This document shows positions 11,413 to 28,620 of a DNA stretch of 31,681 bases, piece after piece. The translations under genes were made by a program, and so were the position numbers. The notes under the pieces were generated by a model. That model was given only the letters and a program-made list of their open reading frames with translations, ran no database searches and had not been told where the DNA came from. Source of the stretch: Spirogloea muscicola (Eukaryota; Streptophyta; Zygnematophyceae; Spirogloeales; Spirogloeaceae); NCBI GenBank assembly GCA_009602725.1, contig WELB01000233.1, positions 1 through 31,681 on the forward strand, given 5' to 3'. Each line of letters starts with the position of its first letter. Position 1 is the first letter of the stretch.

Positions 11413-13148
11413 CTAGTTGCCATCAAGTGACGCAATGGTTTTGGACAAAAGCTCTGCACGTCCGCCGACCATCCTCTCCGCCTCCAGGCCCCGCTCGCCT
11501 GTAACAGTGTGCATTCCTGAAATCTGATCTCGCTTGCTTGCTGGCGGCGGACAAGAAGGCAGCAGCAGAGATGCTGCGCTCGCAGCCTCTGGACTTTGCC
11601 ATGCAAGATTTACTCACCGGTTCTGATCCGCACGATGTCAAGGACTGGATAGACTGCATAGCCATCACATACAAGGGGGAGAAGCTCCAGCTCAGGTATG
11701 ACATACATGCTGACCGAGTACCGCACATCAATTACCAGAGACTGCACACACTAGAGGCCATCCTTGTATGGACTATGAGGCAGACGGTACGAGCACACAC
11801 CAAAGATCTTCCCATCTCCGATCTCCCCTGTCCTGGCCTCCGTCATGATGGTGTCAATAAGGGCCTCGACCTGCCAAGGACATGAATGCTCCACCAAGAC
11901 CTGATTGCTGCTGGTCGACCACCGTCATCATGTGACATCCTGAACACGTAAATGTGCATGCAGACCACACGAACGATGGAATTGCTCATTATTCACCTGG
12001 TCTGAGACGATGACAACCTCCAGCTTCACTTTGGACACAAAGTTGGAGTCAGTGAACTCAGAGCCTGCAGCACCACTAGAATGACCGAGTCATTACCAGC
12101 AGAGCCCGGGATCATATGCACGAGGCAAGGCTCATCACAAGTTGTTAGACTGGCAAGGGCTCTTAAGTCAGCTCAAGCTAAACTCACAACCAAGACTCCG
12201 GTCGAGACGACCCACCAGCGTGGCGCTCTCTTGAGCCTCCTTGCGCTCCAAAGCCTTTCACATCAGTGATAGTGACACCTCTGATGCCCATCTTTAGGAG
12301 AGCCTGCAGGTCATCCCCATGACGCCCTCAGCTTATCATGGCTGGGCAGGAAGCTGCGCATATCCAGGACCTGTGGTGGTGGCGCACGTCGTGCCCGTCG
12401 CGCCGTTTCTGCCGCTTCTCTAAGGCACGTCATCAAGAGTGCGCGAGTCAAGCAAGCAAGGACCCTGTCGACATGGCAAGCTGAGGTTATGTACTGGCCG
12501 GCCACGTGAAGGCAACCCTTCACCTGGGCCACAATGTTGACGCGCCAGGGCCTGTGAGCCAGCAAAGCAAGGTCAGCAGGTGGTGGCAGCGGGCAACCCC
12601 GCGGGCTGCCCGACCAGATCCCAGCCGCAGCAGCCAAAGGCAACTGCTGCGGCGCAAGAGAGGCACAGCTCCGGTCCAGCCTTGGCGGGCCGCCGGGGCT
12701 TGGGCTCTCGGGCTACGTCGGGCACCACGCATTCTACACGGATCACCCGTCTTCACCTCAGAATCGCCTCCACCTTGAAGAACTCCACGTCCGCGCAGGC
12801 TGGCCCTGTGGCAGGAGGGCGAGCTTCGTGAGTGGGCAACGCCCATGCTTGTGGCCCGCAGCGGTCAGCCTTTGGTGGGTGCCAGGTGGGGCTGGGAGGG
12901 TGGTTCGGAGACGAAAGTCAGTGACAATGGCACGGGCACGGAGGGCCCCGCTCGGGGGCGATGGGGGGGAGGGCGGGCACCGTCGTCGGAGGACGCTCGG
13001 NNNNNNNNNNNNNNNNNNNNNNNNNNNNNNNNNNNNNNNNNNNNNNNNNNNNNNNNNNNNNNNNNNNNNNNGGCGGCGGGGGGGAGCGGGAGCTGAGGCG
13101 GGCGAGCGGCGCGGCGGCGGCGGGGGGGGCCGCAGCGAGCGCGGCCAT
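11413..13148 (-). CDS. GLB1: PII nitrogen-regulatory protein (GLB1), plastid type, about 8 exons, gap in exon 1
   Basis: Plastid PII senses 2-oxoglutarate/ATP/ADP and, in plants and green algae, glutamine, and controls N-acetylglutamate kinase of arginine synthesis. Exons: 12981-about 13148 (broken by the gap 13001-13071), 12757-12805, 12524-12551 (28 nt), 12216-12303, 11997-12064, 11801-11870, 11618-11653, 11413-11498; all introns GT-AG. The mature part (about 140 aa) begins RASSDDGPACADVEFFKVEA then ILRPWRVNIVAQ and ALLKMGIRGVTITDVKGFGA. T-loop: QGGSRERHAGSEFTDSNF. B-loop: TGEIGDGKIF. C-loop: RIRTGERG. The Q-loop-like end is EAERMVGGRAELLSKTIA. The start at 13148 gives MAALAAAPPAAAAPLARLSS, a typical chloroplast transit peptide. 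Its frame cannot be followed through the gap; as written (71 N) it does not match, so the gap size is probably arbitrary. Confidence 0.95.
13001..13071. other. Assembly gap (71 N) inside PII exon 1
   Basis: A run of 71 undetermined bases flanked by very GC-rich sequence. It lies between the PII transit-peptide start and the RASSDD residues before intron 1. The true length is unknown. Confidence 0.99.
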
Positions 13149-14149: not shown

Positions 14150-14690
14150 AAAGCAAGCGCGGCCAGATGGTGGCTGGGAGAGGCCAGCCCAAAGGAATGG
14201 ACAAGGTCTGAAGGAGCCGGAGTGCTAAGGACTGAGACAGCAGCAAGCGGACTCTCAGTAACCTCTAGTCTTTAGATGCAAATCTGAATAGCTAGCAGGC
14301 GGAAAGACGTCGCCCTGACGGTAGCCGGAGGCCGCCGCCAAAGCGCGGCCTGCGCGCAAGTGGACCGCAAAAGCTAGGGACCGCTGCAAAGAGATGGCCA
14401 AGCGCATCCGGAAGACTTGGGCGAGGGATCTGGCGACATTGAAGCCAGTCTGCTCGCCCTGCTGCCCGTGGCGGCGGGCCGCTGCTCGCCGCGCAAGGTG
14501 GTGAAGCAGGTAAAGCCATTTGGCGCCAAAGGCGCCGTGTACGTCGACGGCGAGTGGCACAAACCCTGTCGCCCACCGGGTGATCCGAGTATTTCCGATC
14601 CTTGGCGCCTGCCGCTGGGCGGACTGCGTAGCCCGCCTCCTCCGCCGAGCGTTTGGCGCTCCTCGAATCAAAAGAGTCAGTCGTGCAATT
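14150..14690 (-). mobile_element. Retrotransposon fragment: end of RLE, C-terminal module, B-type 3' UTR
   Basis: Minus strand: EEAGYAVRPAAGAKDRKY (the K-bearing end of the restriction-like endonuclease; compare KAGYAVACAARAKE at 18300-18250). After a frameshift come VPLAVDVHGAFGAKWLYLLH, FNVARSLAQVFRMRLAIS, RAGRALAAASGYRQGDVFPP and SYSDLHLKTRGY, with TGA at 14255-14257. The 3' UTR (to about 14150) has CTTGTCCATTCC and GGGCTGGCCTCTCCCAGCC and closely matches 6755-6866. This is one of the best preserved C-terminal modules in the window. Confidence 0.85.
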
Positions 14691-15311: not shown

Positions 15312-17577
15312 CTAGGCATGGTCAGCACGAAGATGCAAGGCTGATTCCTGGAAACGTTGCACCGCAAGCAAGAGGCGCATGCGACACTCCTGACCGACCT
15401 CCTCCAGCCACTTGATTGACGAGCAGTGACCTGGGCTGCAGCAGGGCCAGCAGGGTGAACAGCAGACTGCCAGGCTGCGGGCTCGCTGGGCCAGAAGATG
15501 ACCACAGCGTCTTCCACGACTCTCCGGCTTGCCAAAGCAGCCGCCCTGGGCGGCCATAGGCCATGAGGAAAAAGGGTATAAGCGAAGGGAAGTGGTTGCG
15601 CAGCTCCTCCATGATGACGCTGCGCTCCACCGTGTTGAAGGCGTTACTGATATCCAGTCCAAGGACCATCATTGAAGGGTCCACGTCGAGAGCAGCGCGG
15701 ATGCCGTGGACGAGGGCCTCCGCCCCGCAGGACATGCCAGCACCAAATTGGTGGGGTGATAGGTGGCTGGTCAGCTGGGGTTTCAGCTCGCTGCACACGG
15801 CCTTTGATACCAGCCGCATGATAACCTCCGTCATCGCAATGGGTCTCACCCCGCCTGTCGGCTTCGCAAGGGTCAGCAGGTGGCTGGAATTTAAGGCGTC
15901 GGCAATGCGTGGTGGAATGGCAGCCCTGGCGATGTGCCGGCAGGTGGACAGGAACAGGGAGAAGCTCCTCTCATCCCCATCAAGAAATAGGTCCTGTAGG
16001 TGCTCAAAGAGCCATCCAGAAGGGCCTCCAGACACCATCCGGGGGGCTTTGGTCAGGGCCACACGGAGCGCTTCTGCCGACAGGTCAAGAGGACTGGGGA
16101 GCTCGCCAGCCCAGGGCTCGAGGGGGTGTTGTGGAGGGGGGTGGAGCTGTCGCAAGATAGCCTCCGTGGCGTCGTTGGTAGTAGCCAGGGGGTCAGGGCA
16201 AAGGGCCTGAGCGGCCCGGGAAAGTTCTCCTGCCCTGCCAAAGCGTCTTGCGCGCGCTAGATTTCCAGCTGTGGACTGTTGAGAGGGCTGATTGATTGCT
16301 CCATTGCGCGCCCGCCGCTGTGAGAGCGCGACCCGAGCAGCTGCTGCCCGCTGCTGGGCCAACTCCTCCCATTTCCCACTTGCAAATGCAGCCAGTCTGT
16401 CCTGGAGAGTCTTGCGGCCACCGACGCCGAAGGAGGGAAGATGGCCAAGAACGAGCTTGGGAAAAAGCAATTACAACGCCCAGGCCGCCTCGTCCATAGA
16501 GTCCGCTTCGATGCGTGCGAGGTAAGGCGTAAGAACCTTGGTGCACTGACGACGTGCCCATCTGGGAACGTGGCGAAGGTTTCGAAGGCCGTCAGGGATG
16601 AGAAGGGGGGTGAGGTCCACTGTGGCAGCCCAATGCCAGCTCTCTGAAGAAGGGGGTGGTGGAGGCCGGACTGTGCCAGGCACTTGTGAACTCGCTGCCA
16701 GCTCCTCGCGATTCTGGCGGTTGCGACAGTGATAGGCATGGACTGGCAGCCCTCTCGTGTTGAAACGTTGCTGGCATACTGGGCAGGGGACTCTGTGGTC
16801 TGGCGCATTTGGGAGGCCCGTGTGGACTGGGCTTGGGTTGTGAGACTGACCCTGGCGATGGCGAGGTCGTTCTTGATGGTCATCAGCTGGATGGCGTCTC
16901 GCGATAACAGGTCGAGGCAGCAAGGGAGGTGGAGGTACGGGTAGAGGTAACAGGGGAGGTAGAGGAGGCAATGATGGTGGCGGCACTGGTGGTGGTGGTG
17001 GTGGTGGTAGTGGAGCAGGTGGTGGTGGTGGTGGTGGTGGTCGTGGCGGCTCCGGGGCGGGGACTGGTGCTGGCACTGGTAAATGCACAGCTGGAGCTTG
17101 AGAAAGAGATGAGCGTTGCCTTCGAGTCGAGAGTAGATGCAGCAGACTTCGCGGCCGGCAGGAAATAAAGGGCCCGTCCGCAGTAGAAGAGTCGCTTGAC
17201 TGTGCTGGGCTGATGACAATTCCGACTCGGGGGTCCATGTTGGGGGCCTCGGACTCTGCATCCGAGGAGGCCGAGCCGGGGTCCGCAAGCCGAGCTATCT
17301 CATCAGGAGCAGGGACTGCAGGGAGGGGCTCGGGCTCCACAGCCGTCGTCGGGGAGGAGCGTGAAGAAGCTGAAGGGGGCGTTGAAGGAGTGGGAAGGTC
17401 GGCCACTAAGGCAATGGCAGCCCTCATTGCAGCAGTCGAGCTGCGGGTGCCGTAAGGGCGAGGGGCGCGCCGCGACGGGCTGCGCGCCGCGCCGCGACCT
17501 TTGGCAGCCGCCGCCATGGCGGTGGGGTCGGCCAGCGGGCGGTGGGCGGTGGGCGGCGGCCAGAAGGGCTCGCCCAC
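15312..17577 (-). mobile_element. Non-LTR retrotransposon with zinc finger and RT domain; nonsense codon and internal deletion
   Basis: Minus strand, one frame from 17577. It has a 368-codon N-terminal part with a proline-rich linker (GGT microsatellite 16980-17045) and a C2H2/C2HC-like finger VPCPVCQQRF...HAYHC near 16790-16730. A TAA at 16471-16473 interrupts it. The RT part continues in the same frame (16470-15322): KPTGGVRPIAMTEVIMRLVS (fingers), HQFGAGMSCGAEALVHGIRA, and motif A LGLDISNAFN at about residue 273. Shortly after AYGRPGRLLWQAG homology stops. The catalytic motif C (YxDD-like), thumb, finger and RLE are missing, and a different frame gives CRMRLLLAVQRFQESALHLR (15385-15312), the C-terminal module. 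It is thus an internally deleted, inactive copy, and the only one here with an RT domain. Confidence 0.88.
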
Positions 17578-18949: not shown

Positions 18950-19233
18950 AAGGGCCACATCCAGCCGGTCCGTTGTCCAGGCGACAGCTCGCACACAAGC
19001 GGCTGACACGGGAACGACGCCCCGGAACTCCACTCCCCACGACGCGCTGGCCTCGTTGCGCCTCGGCCGCGACGGCCTCCTCCCATATCCTCTGGACGAG
19101 TCTTCCCACCACTCCGCACCCCCGCCGCTCCCGAACGCCGCGCCCAAGCCCCAACCCCTCCGCCGGCCCCTCTGCCCTCCCTGCCCCTCCGCCCCCACCA
19201 GGCGCGCCCCGCTCGCCCCCGCCCGCCGGCGCC
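18950..19233 (+). promoter_or_regulatory. GC-rich promoter/5' leader region of eIF3i
   Basis: About 280 bp between the retrotransposon fragment and the eIF3i start. The last ~130 bases are C-rich and pyrimidine-rich on the plus strand, as in a 5' UTR. No TATA box is seen. The exact transcription start cannot be read from the sequence. Confidence 0.4.
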
Positions 19234-21491
19234 ATGCGGCCCATCCTGCTCAAGGGCCACGAGCGGCCGCTCACGTTCCTCAAGTACAACCGCGAGGGCG
19301 ACCTGCTGGTGTCGTGCGCCAAGGACCACCAGCCCAACATCTGGTACGCCGACAACGGCGACCGCCTGGGCACCTACCGCGGCCACAACGGCGCCGTGTG
19401 GACCGCCGACATCACGCGCGACTCGCGCCGCCTCATCACCGGCTCCGCCGATCAGTCCGCCATGCTCTGGGACCTCGAGACCGGCGCGCAGGCCTTCGTC
19501 TTCCACTTTGACGCACCCGCGCGCTCCGTCGACTTCTCGCACGGCGAGCACCTCGTCGCCGTCACCACCGACCCCTTCATGGGCGCTTCCTCCGCCGTCC
19601 ACGTCAAGCGCATCGCCGACGACAAGGCCGACCGTGAGCACCCACCCACCTCCCGTTTCTCGCGCCGCCCAGCCCGCCCAAGGGCAGGCAGCAGCGAGCC
19701 CTCACAGCTACTCCTGACAGGCTCGATGGCACGAGGCGCCCTCTTGGTCGGTCGCCCGGCGCCCGGCGAGCCAGTACCAAGGCCCTGGCTCCGCGCCGGC
19801 TGGCGGGTTGACAGGGGCAGGCAGCCTTCAGTCCCTGCTCCTTGAGCCGGTTCCCCTCGCTTGGTGCTGCAGAGGACGACGAGACCCTCCTGACGATCAA
19901 GGGCCCTGTTGGCCGCATCAACCGCTGCGTCTGGGGCCCGCTGAACAGGACGCTGATCGGGGCTGGGGAGGATGCCACCGTCCGCATGTGGGATGCTGAG
20001 GTGACTTGCTTTTGACCGATGCATCTAATTTCTCCAGGGTTTACCTAGTGGTACCCAGTTGTCTCTTTGGTGCCCATCTGATCATCACTCTCAGGGCCAG
20101 TGATTGCTCAGGCCCATCTTGCCACCTCTTCCCGCGTTCTTCAGAGCCCCTGAGCTTCGCTGTGTGGATCTTCATGGGCTTCTAGACTGGTCAGGTGCTC
20201 AAGGAGAGCGATGCTGAGACTGGTCACCAGAAGAGGATTGCATCGCTCGAAGTGTCAGCAGACGGCTCTCACTTCATCACTGGATCCAATGACAAGTCCG
20301 CCAAGGTGAGCTTCGATCAGTGTCACCTGTTTCATACCGCACCATGCAACACATACCAGAGCTTGTCTTCCTTTTGATTCGCGGCCGTGATTGTGAGAAC
20401 CTGGCCACCCTTCAGATTCTACTTGATGGAGCAGCAGTCTACGACTATGCTGTTCCTATTACTTTTACTCTTTTGTCAGAAGGCCATGACAAGTTGCTGG
20501 AGCGAGCTGCAAATGTCGCAGCTCAGGTTGCATCACTGCGTAGCCCTGGTTGATTTAGTACTTGCTTGAGCCCTGCAGCTCTGGGATATCAGGACACTAG
20601 AGGCCCTCAAGACCTACTCGACGGAGCGGCCTGTGAATGCCGCCTCCATATCTCCCTTACTCGATCATGTATGTGACTATCAGCCCTTCTACCAGTAGAA
20701 CAGTATGACGCGCTACATACATGCTGGCAGATGGCGGCCTAGCATTCTGGCTGTCTTGTTGATTCGTTGGCTGGTTGTCAGCATGGAAGTAAGCCTGGTC
20801 CCCGGTGGGTCAATGAGCAGGCATGGTCAAGCAGCAGGCAGGGAGGCAGGACATGCACGTGTCTCGTGCCCTCCTGCTGAGATCGTCTGAAGCTACAAGA
20901 AGATGAAGGTCCACCCTTTGTCTTGTGCAGGTAGTCATTGGAGGTGGGCAGGATGCTGCCAGTGTAACCACGACATCATCAAGGGCTGGCAAATTCGAGG
21001 CAAAGTTCTTTCACAAGGTGCTCTTCTTATATCATTCACGCTTGCGCTCGTAGTTGCAGAAGAGGCATGGTCTGTCTAGCGGCAGACCAGTTGTATGTCA
21101 CGATTTAAGCCCCTATATGATGCTAACAATCTCCTCGTACTCCCCTCTTATTGGCCCCCCAGGTGTTTGAGGAGGAAATTGGTGGAGTGAAAGGCCACTT
21201 TGGCCCCATCAATGCATTGTCGTTCAGCCCAGATGGCAGGAGGTAAGGCGCAGTGCATCAGTATTTGGCATGGCTTGTGGAAGAGCTTACTCAGGTTGTA
21301 CCAGCTTCACATTCTCTCATACTCTCAATGATGGTGGCTTTATAGAGGATGCAGGCAATGCACTCATCGGGTTGGCAGGTTGCACATCTCACTTGGCGTT
21401 GACGGATTGGTGCAGTTTTGCAAGTGGAGGCGAGGATGGGTATGTTCGGATACATCACTTCGACTCGGACTACTTCCACATAAAGATATGA
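19234..21491 (+). CDS. TIF3I1: Translation initiation factor eIF3 subunit I (TRIP-1/TIF34), WD40 protein, 7 exons
   Basis: Cytoplasmic WD40 beta-propeller subunit of eIF3, which binds the 40S ribosome and recruits initiation factors. Exons: 19234-19633, 19873-20000, 20186-20305, 20579-20668, 20931-21017, 21163-21242, 21416-21491; all six introns GT-AG. The coding length of 981 nt gives 326 aa, close to the plant protein. It begins [20 protein letters not shown], the universal eIF3i start, and ends [21 protein letters not shown]. Propeller repeats are evident: [13 protein letters not shown]...[34 protein letters not shown] then [79 protein letters not shown]. Exon 1 is very GC-rich; later exons are near 50%. 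The ATG follows a pyrimidine-rich leader and matches family starts. It is convergent with the LCIB-like gene at 22525-24359. Confidence 0.97.
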
Positions 21492-21708
21492 ACCTGTCAC
21501 GTGCAAAGCGAGAGGGTTTCCTACAAGAGCTTGGATCTGTCTGCCGTCTGGAAGCTGATACAGATATCAGGCACTCTTCATAAGCTTCAGGACACAGGAC
21601 AGCTGCACGAGTACTCCACTGGATGAAAGTACCTGCACTGGTATTCCACCTCTTGTGGAACTCCTTTGGCTTTTGGGTTTTGTCCCGCACAATGCTGCAT
21701 GAGGTCCA

Positions 21709-25169: not shown

Positions 25170-25570
25170 CGAACAATGTATTGGCTTGACTTGTCCACGC
25201 GCTTGTTCCAAGCGCACCGCGCGCCTTCTCTCTGTTGGACTCCCCGTCAAGTCATGCACTTGGCGCGCCTTCGCGCTCTCCCCGTAATTGCTCTTGGGCT
25301 GTGTGGCTCTCAGCTTTCCGGCCCCTTCGGACTTCGTTGATCTTCTGCCCCTTAAACCTTGTCATCTCCTTGGGCTGGCCATTCACAGCCTAAAATCTCT
25401 TCTCCCACCTATCCGGCTTGTCCCTTGGTATTGGCTGCCTGGATCTTTGTTGCGAGGTGGGACTCAGCACCTTCAGGGGCCTCCAGGCCTTGTCCATTTC
25501 TATAAGGCTGGCTTTCCAAAGCCATCCCCCCCTTTTGGGACGACTTTCTATTGTGACCTTGTCCGTTGTT
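25170..25570 (+). mobile_element. Cluster of plus-strand retrotransposon 3' UTR pieces
   Basis: GTATTGGCTTGACTTGTCC and CACCGCGCGCCTTCTCTC (25175-25230) are an A-type UTR end. Two hairpin modules follow: about 25355-25410 (CTTGTCATCTCC, GGGCTGGCCATTCACAGCC) and 25483-25550 (CTTGTCCATTTC, AGGCTGGCTTTCCAAAGCC). No coding tail is readable. The order implies at least three insertion events. Confidence 0.6.
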
Positions 25571-25789
25571 ACATGCTACTTGGAAGAGCTCCTTTTCTCA
25601 CGGCTGAACTTGTGGAAGAGCTTCTCTCTCTTGAATTGCTCCTCGTAAGGATTTGGGAATGAGGAATCCACGAGGTTGAGGGTCCACACTCTCTCGATCA
25701 CAGCAAGCCCACTGAATCGGCGGAGGCTGGGCACACGGGCAGCAAGCTGTTAGCGGCAAGGTAAGGACCAGCCTGCTGGAGATGAGTCT

Positions 25790-26131
25790 GCTGCGCTGGC
25801 CAGAGACGTTCACGGGGCATTTGGAAGTCGGCGACCTTATACAGCAGCTTGCCGGGCGTTCGACCGCATGACGCTAAGGCCAGAGAAGTGAGCAGCCCGG
25901 CTTCAATGCCGCTGGTTCGCTCGCTCAGGTATTCTGCATGCGCCTGTAAGACTCGCTACATCGTGCCCAGGCATTTGCAGTGCACTTGCGAGCAGGCCGC
26001 ACTGTGCCTGCAGCTTCTGGATCTCGCTGTGGTGACAAGTTTACCGGCAGCAAGCTATCTTACTTGCGGCTGCTGACCAGGGGCTATTGAAGCTTAGGAT
26101 TGAGCAACCACTAGTATCAGCCACTTGCGTG
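25790..26131 (+). mobile_element. Retrotransposon 3' end (C-terminal module), plus strand
   Basis: Plus strand: ALARDVHGAFGSR near 25797-25840, then EQPGFNAAGSLAQVFCMRL (25885-25945). After frameshifts, YLRLLTRGY with TGA at about 26086-26088. The 3' UTR then starts and is interrupted at 26132 by a hairpin-only insertion. It resumes at 26217 (GCTGTGTGG; compare CTTTGCTGAGTGG near 27685). Confidence 0.78.
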
Positions 26132-26216
26132 AAAAGAAAGTGGCTCTTCTAAAGGGGGCGAGGGCTGTGAACAGCCAGCCCGGAAGTACTTGACAAGGTC
26201 CGCAGCTACTTGCGTG
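26118..26216 (-). mobile_element. 71-nt hairpin micro-insertion with ~14-bp target-site duplication
   Basis: CAGCCACTTGCGTG (26118-26131) and CAGCTACTTGCGTG (26203-26216) flank a 71-nt insert (26132-26202). Read on minus, the insert is CGGACCTTGTCAAG, GGGCTGGCTGTTCACAGCCC, CGCCCCC and AGAGCCACTTTCTTTT. It is exactly one hairpin module with no coding sequence. Removing the insert and one repeat restores the 3' UTR seen in other copies (CAGCCACTTGC...GCTGAGTGG near 27673 and 28568). Confidence 0.85.
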
Positions 26217-26439
26217 GCTGTGTGGTTTTGCTTCGGACCGTGTCCAATTGTGGGGCGCGTTTCCCTTCTGCCCCTCGGCTGGGGCCAAGGTGGCCAGGGT
26301 TGCCGACCGCTTGCCCGCGTATGCAGGGCGGCGAACCTGGGCAGCCGCGCGCAGGTCGCCAGGTGGCCCACATTGGCTCCAGGTGGCGGTCCGCTGCTGG
26401 ACGAGGCACCTAGACGTGGCGGGGACTGCAGGCCCCTCG

Positions 26440-26770
26440 GCGCCCAACCGCGCGACCCGGGGCTCGGGCGCGCCACGCGGCCGAGCTGAACACCGCCGCC
26501 TTGGCGACCGCCATGCAGCTTCTCCCTCAGACGGACCTGCAACGGCGTGCCCGCCTGTGCTCGGCGCCCTCGCCTGCAGCGCCGGCATGGCTCATAGCTC
26601 TTCCTCTTTCGCATGCCCTACGGATGCCGGATGAGCCCTTCCGCACAGCAGTGCGCCGCCTCCCTGGCCTCCCTTCGCACTGCTTCAGGGGCGTGTTGCT
26701 GTGTGCATGGAGGCGCAGCGGACGATCTCCGTCCGAGATTGCTCAATTGGGCGTCTTCCTGGAGGCGAGA
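26440..26770 (+). mobile_element. Retrotransposon fragment around the CCHC-like finger
   Basis: Plus strand: AELNTAALATAMQLLPQTDL, QRRARLCSAPSPAAPAWL, MPDEPFRTAVRRLPGLPSHC and FRGVLLCAWRRSGRSPSEIA. This aligns with QQLPAADLRGRARLHSASSP and TPDEVFRSAVHRLLG in the copy at 17820-18900, the region just before the endonuclease. The finger is damaged. Homology stops where a minus-strand 3' UTR begins at 26775. Sequence from 26220 to 26440 may belong to the same copy, but I could not align it. Confidence 0.7.
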
Positions 26771-27600: not shown

Positions 27601-27920
27601 AAGAGCTTCTTCTCCTCTCCAGCTGTTAGTCAACTGCTTGCAGCTATTGACGGGGATAAAGTGAGGTTGCCATCCGTAGCAGCCACTTGCTTTGCTGAGT
27701 GGTTGGCACATGTCAGACCCTTCCGATCTTGTCCATATACTTAGGCTGATTCAATACGCCGTTGCACCGTTTTGGAGTTGTTCTTTCCCTCTTTGATCAG
27801 ATTTTGCTGCTCGCCCACCTCTGACCACCGCAGTGGGCTGACCTTGCTCAGCCGCCATCCCCCTTGGGCTGGCCTTACACAGCCATCGCCCCCTTCAGAA
27901 AGAGCCACTTCTTCTTCCTG
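27600..27920 (+). mobile_element. Degenerate retrotransposon tail and hairpin 3' UTR
   Basis: Plus strand: LQLLTGIK and TGA (27634-27660), a worn form of LRLLTRGY. The UTR contains TAGCAGCCACTTGC (as near 26115 and 28568), then the hairpin module GGGCTGGCCTTACACAGCC and AAAGAGCCACTTCTTCTTCC (27860-27917). Confidence 0.6.
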
Positions 27921-27959: not shown

Positions 27960-28620
27960 GAGACAACATGCCCCATGGTATGTCACATGCGGCACACCAG
28001 TCTCAAGTGGCCACAGAGCGACGTCCATCACACCTAAGTCCAGTTGGCACCAACTGCCGATGGTCGTTCCAACAGGCGGCCGACCTCGCCCCTGTGCTTG
28101 GCGGGGCCATCACATCACAACAAATTGCTCGGACCCCACCATCCGACTGGCTTAGAAGTCGCAAGGCTGCAGGCGCCAAGGAGCACAATTGTGCGGACCA
28201 GCATGCAGCAGACGAATTTGTCTTGCTGGCAATCGAAATTAGAAATTTGGCGGCTTGACTTCTTCCAGCAGCTTGCGCTAAGAGCAGGAACTCAGAGCCA
28301 AGGGCAGCATGCCGAGCAGCCCAGCTTCAAAGAAACTCTTTAGTAGGGGACGCTGGCTGTGAAACGCCAGCATAAAAATACAATGCCTCAGATCCACCAG
28401 GTCGCTTGCTCAGGTGCACCGTGTGCGCCTTTCCGTACCAGCGTTCCCAGGCATTTCATTTGGGGTAGAACAGTAAAAGGGCCACCTCAAAATTCGCCGT
28501 GGCAATCTTTCTGGCTGCTAGCTACTCCGACTTACGGCTATTGACGAGGGGTTTTGAAGCACCTAGTAGCCACTCGTGTAGCTGAGTGGGTTGCCCTTTC
28601 CGGCCCCTCTACATAAGATT
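27960..28620 (+). mobile_element. Retrotransposon fragment: end of RLE, C-terminal module, with an inserted hairpin
   Basis: Plus strand: GAKEHNCADQHAADEFVLLA followed by IEI (counterpart of ...LLTLVNDIHGAF), LDFFQQLALRAG and AEQPSF (28150-28330). Then a foreign piece of about 60 nt (28331-28392) with GCTGGCTGTGAAACGCCAGC, the hairpin module in reverse. Then SLAQVHRVRL and ATPTYGY/SDLRLLTRGF with TGA near 28553. The 3' UTR follows with a worn module near 28625. No clear target-site duplication was found around the 28331-28392 insert. Confidence 0.72.

Follow-up and report, generated by a model that had tools for sequence, protein, structure and literature searches.

A 71-nucleotide antisense insert in a LINE 3' UTR is a strongly 5'-truncated LINE tail

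We identified a 71-nt insert within the 3' UTR of a degraded LINE copy. Resident non-LTR retrotransposons (LINEs) have this sequence as their 3' tail, and the insert is a strongly 5'-truncated copy in antisense orientation to its host. It lies on contig C233 of a 153.1-Mb genome comprising 471 contigs; the whole stretch of this contig that was analyzed, which we refer to as the window, is 31,681 nt in length. The interpretation of the 71 nt as an insertion into the 3' UTR of a sibling LINE, with a target-site-like duplication, is supported by the sequences flanking the insert and by the sibling UTRs. The relevant features of the window are as follows.

14168..14208, minus strand: sister-type LINE tail, located downstream of 14255, where a frame ends in ..LKTRGY* (tail profile)
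15322..16470, minus strand: reverse transcriptase fragment from a LINE of the same superfamily (Pfam RVT_1, E 1.3e-7)
25880..26088, plus strand: host LINE copy, degraded 3' end of the ORF (at least 39 other scored matches in the genome, most stopping near the stop codon)
26089..26131, plus strand: first part of the host LINE 3' UTR, up to and including repeat copy 1 (sibling UTR alignment)
26118..26131, plus strand: direct repeat copy 1 (target-site duplication), CAGCCACTTGCGTG (13/14 identical to copy 2)
26132..26202, minus strand: insert, 71 nt of 5'-truncated LINE 3' tail, antisense to the host (profile match and flanked-query copies)
26203..26216, plus strand: direct repeat copy 2, CAGCTACTTGCGTG (13/14 identical to copy 1)
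26203..26248, plus strand: remainder of the host LINE 3' UTR, continuing into what is left of the tail that belongs to the host itself, CGGACCGTGTCCAATT (sibling UTR alignment)
27640..27760, plus strand: sibling LINE UTR, empty at the insertion site and continuing into its own tail (joined flanks 54 vs filled 40)
28500..28620, plus strand: sibling LINE UTR with the empty site (joined flanks 48 vs filled 39)

The initial annotation described a 71-nt insertion into the 3' UTR of another element with a 13/14-bp duplication, and its coordinates proved exact to the base. It also described the insert as lacking any coding sequence of its own and being T-rich at its 3' end, and we find the same; the T-rich end is TTTCTTTTC. 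The antisense orientation relative to the host UTR had no part in that account. Read on the minus strand, the insert is GGACCTTGTC...GGGCTGGC...GAGCCACTTTCTTTTC, with the middle also given as GGGCTGGCTGTTCACAGCCC. It matches a LINE tail profile, built from other copies together with the window, with an E-value of 7.3e-20. A repeat scoring as high as that around the insert is found in 0.58% of mismatched 5'/3' flank pairs from other copies, although this copy was chosen for its repeat. The end of the host ORF is 86–89% identical to the corresponding regions of loci L042 and L043.

An empty site is present among the siblings of the host. The set examined comprises 21 UTRs, namely 19 sibling UTRs from the 39 other matches to the host ORF end and the two siblings in the window near 27673 and 28568. 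Thirteen of the 21, including both of those in the window, give a better alignment when the flanks are joined by removing the insert and one repeat, seven align better to the filled version, and one (L055) is a tie. Among the seven that prefer the filled version, three (L042, L043 and L052) carry an antisense tail at the place of the insert. In two others (L050 and L056) the filled version has an advantage of 2 and 3 points, and inspection by eye shows no module at the site. The remaining two, L059 (40 vs 22) and L060 (25 vs 23), favor it through local matches inside the filled sequence that do not span the site. The 71 nt are therefore absent from most of the siblings examined and are not a regular part of this UTR, so that the insertion first proposed stands, together with the claim that removing the insert and one repeat recreates the UTR of the siblings.

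Two other contigs hold sequences related to the insertion locus. The L042 locus on C114 matches the window across the ORF end, the UTR and the module at 82% over 307 columns, and L043 gives a similar one-stretch match at 77% over 317 columns. On C183 the relationship is more broken. Positions 25686–26186 of the window match C183:22577–22060 on the minus strand in two adjoining pieces, positions 26139–26223 match C183:23403–23488, including the right-hand junction of the insert and sequence beyond it, and positions 26262–26497 match C183:24417–24650. L042 and C183 share 1.2 kb at 91.5%. From these alignments we read the C183 and C114 loci as probable segmental paralogs of the window, with the C183 locus rearranged and a breakpoint in the module. 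C183 retains both insertion junctions, each in its own piece, which makes it look as if the insertion preceded the duplication of the segment. As two other contigs hold paralogs with the insert, the event is not recent. Taken as a whole, C183:22060–24650 compares with window positions 25554–26497 as a rearranged paralog whose breakpoint, inside the tail module, is inversion-like. We also considered that L042 and L043 carry a longer antisense LINE and rejected this, since they proved to be segmental paralogs of the window whose module has been rearranged.

The window, L042 and L043 might each have taken up a tail independently at one preferred nucleotide. The modules of L042 and L043 look like another tail variant (TTCTCA...CCATCGCC or similar) and are 81% and 76% identical to the module in the window, compared with up to 91% for unrelated copies, and L052 has an antisense tail near the same place. 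However, L042 and L043 match the window as one stretch through the ORF end, UTR and module, and C183 also retains the right-hand junction and the sequence past it, both of which fit descent. We regard independent insertion as unlikely and favor a single event followed by duplication of the segment.

Tails of this type are abundant throughout the genome. A 24-mer core finds 3,924 matches with up to two mismatches in 153 Mb (1,973 and 1,951 by strand), and the reversed pattern finds 0 and 0. A 20-mer from the hairpin finds 11,770 matches with up to three mismatches (5,933 and 5,837; reversed pattern 1 and 1), and a sister tail variant finds 7,580 (3,785 and 3,795; reversed pattern 0), these three sets overlapping one another. 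The window alone contains 17 tails and none in the reversed control. A query of 176 bases, in which the module has flanks of approximately 57 and 47 nt, has 41 scored places consisting of the window and 40 others. Thirty-eight of the 40 start at query positions 56–61 (the module starts at approximately 59), the outlying starts being at 38 on C183 and at 76 at C128:303086, and all 40 end at positions 122–132 (the module ends at 129).

Copies were read with their flanks in 39 stretches, then in a set of 60, and then in 20 that were held out; the sets of 60 and 20 are the first 80 of 100 zero-mismatch core places listed, minus those fetched before. Upstream of TTCGGGCTGG, homology extends 0–15 nt in 15 of the 60 exact-core copies, 16–22 nt in 6, 23–50 nt in 15, 51–85 nt in 7 and more than 85 nt in 17. 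This last class runs into the LINE ORF end, although a few of its alignments are weak. The 20 held-out copies fall into the same classes as 6, 1, 5, 2 and 6. Thus 23 of the 80 identical-core copies reach inside the LINE ORF, and the 5' ends of the others vary down to the edge of the hairpin, with no peak at the start of the 71 nt (7/80 in the 16–22 nt class). Among 10 longer stretches, several have LINE ORF remnants on the 5' side of the tail. The sequence after the tail differs among most of the copies read, though some copies are paralogous to each other. The 3' end GCCACT(T) is reached by 40 of the 60 copies (43 on a looser count), and the other third are shorter or interrupted on the 3' side. 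One copy, L122 on C43, has telomere-like TTTAGGG repeats upstream of its tail.

Since the copies extend 5' by any length up to the LINE ORF end, the 71 nt are what remains of a LINE 3' end after extreme 5' truncation. The initial annotation had proposed the insertion of a separate hairpin module. The insertion is supported, but a separate 71-nt module is not, as copies elsewhere reach 5' as far as the ORF. We rejected an autonomous module of this length because of the spread of 5' ends over the 80 copies.

The same distribution bears on the idea of a discrete, ultra-short SINE-like unit of approximately 70–90 nt that borrows the LINE machinery in trans through a common tail. The tail is indeed common to the insert and the LINEs, there is no coding sequence, and among 44 truncated copies (the window copy included), which range from 35 to 125 nt with a median of 70, 38 are no longer than 100 nt. 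There is also precedent, as portions of PMC3747384 describe tail-sharing SINE/LINE pairs in green algae, with the SINEs known from Chlamydomonas. However, such a unit should have a fixed 5' end, and none is seen among these copies. The window also contains neither a tRNA gene nor any Rfam family at gathering score. Because of the 5'-end distribution in particular, we consider a SINE-like unit very unlikely and retain the truncated LINE tail.

Target-site duplications are not a rule of the family, as the 44 truncated copies show no excess over mismatched flank pairs. A repeat score of at least 7 occurs in 7 of the 44 (window copy included), compared with 12.4% of mismatched pairs, and the best repeat in this set is that of the window copy, itself selected for having one. 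A chimera, in which rearrangement joined an antisense LINE tail between two UTR copies and the repeats are two UTR starts, would accommodate this, the breakpoint in the module of the C183 paralog and the inverted repeat that the junction AGCCACTT...AAGTGGCT forms in itself, but it is highly improbable given that the UTR continues exactly where it was interrupted with a 13–14 bp overlap, that deletion gives back the order seen in siblings, and that at the other edge lies the T-rich 3' end which this LINE tail should have.

The tail contains a hairpin that is conserved in sequence. In an alignment of 24 tails (16 of the 17 in the window, one without a 5' arm having been left out, and 8 from fetched loci), 83.9% of stem cells are paired, compared with 31–54% when the partners are slid. 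There are no compensatory changes among the 24 tails, so covariation support is absent, and the folding energy is unremarkable (z -0.94). The 3' flanks begin near ACAGCC in 5 of the 60 copies compared with a background of 1.2%, though this motif was picked post hoc; the preference was not confirmed in the 20 held-out copies (1/20, p 0.25), and an alternative motif, CCAGCC, occurs in 0/60. At three loci (L084, L095 and L158) the tail apparently sits within the hairpin loop of an older tail, with a left half that is GGCTGGCC-like or similar and a right half beginning ACAGCC. Insertion of new copies into hairpin loops of older tails is thus a post hoc hint, not confirmed in the held-out copies.

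The LINEs that carry such tails belong to a superfamily with several intact members, which end in ..LTRGY* or near variants followed by a short UTR; the end of the host ORF is similar. Intact families at C63, C77, C176 and C36 have tails of the same build as the insert, and the loci L151–L154 consist of intact ORFs followed by such tails. Since loci L135–L145 and L146–L147 have other 3' ends, not every member of the superfamily has this tail. Counting itself, the reverse transcriptase fragment in the window has 115 scored matches in the genome. Many of these lie in long open frames, and the closest intact relatives of the fragment carry another 3' end. Among PDB sequences this fragment matches one group II intron reverse transcriptase (E 0.0024). 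Nine LINE copies with an identical match score, each with an open frame of 1,267 aa (on C89, C151, C153, C203, C255, C298, C329, C357 and C2), constitute a young and possibly active R2-like family. In the eight copies whose 3' ends were read, the 3' UTR ends differently (..ACGCATTT). We identified no intact LINE with exactly the tail found in the window, only degraded ORF ends, one with an endonuclease remnant. This is L069, which has a tail of the insert's type and, upstream, a broken endonuclease region identical to L151 at 70 of 99 residues (71%).

An alignment of the C-terminal 580 residues of five families shows an invariant YADD, a C-C-H-C set and the pattern R..D...DVV..K..Y. The C-C-H-C knuckle is invariant with spacing CX1CX11-12HX3C, compared with the published CX2-3CX7-8HX4C. 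A 582-aa model was unusable (pLDDT 48); the endonuclease domain of L151, modeled alone with AlphaFold2, has a pLDDT of 85.8. In a Foldseek search with the domain model, ranks 1–6 are all R2 retrotransposon structures (E 5.6e-6 to 2.6e-5), and the seven highest Z scores (8.9–10.8) are likewise all R2, the comparison with 9dou_A giving Z 10.8 and rmsd 3.6 over 134 aligned residues. R2 was not found by a sequence profile of the five ORF tails searched against the PDB. The parent superfamily thus has a reverse transcriptase and, based on the modeled fold, a C-terminal R2-like restriction-like endonuclease (RLE).

The insert very probably arose when a strongly 5'-truncated LINE copy entered the UTR of a sibling by target-primed insertion, in antisense orientation. 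The LINE protein, with its reverse transcriptase and R2-like endonuclease, would bind the tail RNA and nick a target in the 3' UTR of the sibling. Reverse transcription would then start at the 3' tail of the RNA and stop after approximately 71 nt, short of the coding region. Repair of the staggered nicks would leave the 13–14 bp duplication, and later duplication of the segment would give the paralogs with the insert on two other contigs. The analysis shows the empty site and the duplication, identifies the insert with LINE 3' ends, and finds a continuous range of 5' ends and, in sister families, the endonuclease fold; the insertion biochemistry would follow the scheme above, and the enzyme would presumably come from a family with exactly the tail of the insert. 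In other LINEs, the protein is established to recognize the tail (portions of PMC4176376), and by analogy it may do so in the present superfamily as well. The third of copies that are also short or interrupted on the 3' side is not predicted by simple tail-primed copying. It is conceivable, though we think it quite unlikely, that an R2-like LINE which has lost its fixed target re-inserts into its own tails and that a bare tail RNA of approximately 70 nt, sufficient by itself, often serves as its template. If so, the genome would be full of retroposed units that are the smallest known, and the 3' UTRs of LINEs would grow as mosaics of tails.

Most members of LINE families are 5'-truncated at various positions, and defective members measure 100–1,000 bp according to portions of PMC3747384. 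The copies described here resemble such truncated LINEs in general in that the 3' end is kept and the 5' end may fall anywhere, with a duplication of target sequence at the insert, but they differ in being mostly no longer than 100 nt. Nested 5'-truncated copies of which mostly 3' ends are left are also described, in parts of PMC8226300, for Zepp in Chlorella and Coccomyxa and for Zepp-like elements in Chlamydomonas. However, Zepp belongs to the L1 clade and in Coccomyxa forms one cluster per chromosome, whereas the present superfamily has a predicted R2-like endonuclease, and its tail cores are spread over many contigs with the two strands nearly equal. Judged against these accounts of green algae, nothing here is categorically new, and the insert, though genuine, is a rather ordinary one among thousands of tail fragments in the genome. 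What is unusual is how short the copies are, how densely they occur, and that dispersed elements have an R2-like endonuclease.

With R2 and other RLE LINEs the superfamily shares a reverse transcriptase, a CCHC-like knuckle (of other spacing), a predicted restriction-like endonuclease fold and, as read by eye, a C2H2-like finger before the reverse transcriptase. RLE LINEs are generally site-specific (portions of PMC5678591), but the copies that we read with flanks are dispersed, with no fixed target. The architecture fits the RLE group as described in those portions, except for the knuckle spacing and the dispersed insertion. A conserved, hairpin-like block near the 3' end, in LINEs and in short derivatives, is also a feature of stringent-type tails (UnaL2 and ZfL2; parts of PMC4176376) and of algal SINEX/RandI (parts of PMC3747384). 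However, the hairpin described here lacks covariation support, and its recognition is putative. With its thousands of short LINE tails, several long-frame R2-like families and dispersed insertion, this eukaryotic genome of 153 Mb is a natural data set in which to study how RLE LINEs may lose their target site and how small a 3' tail suffices for reverse transcription. It also calls for caution, as a short nested hairpin module in a genome of this kind can be the end of a LINE instead of a new class of element.

Some further features of the window were observed. A GGT-rich repeat at 16928–17083 lies within the area of the N-terminal frame adjoining the reverse transcriptase fragment. The region at approximately 12990–13075 is a run of X in several frames, probably a run of N that represents either a gap or withheld sequence. 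Positions 19001–21500 on the plus strand contain frames resembling a WD40 protein (eIF3i-like).
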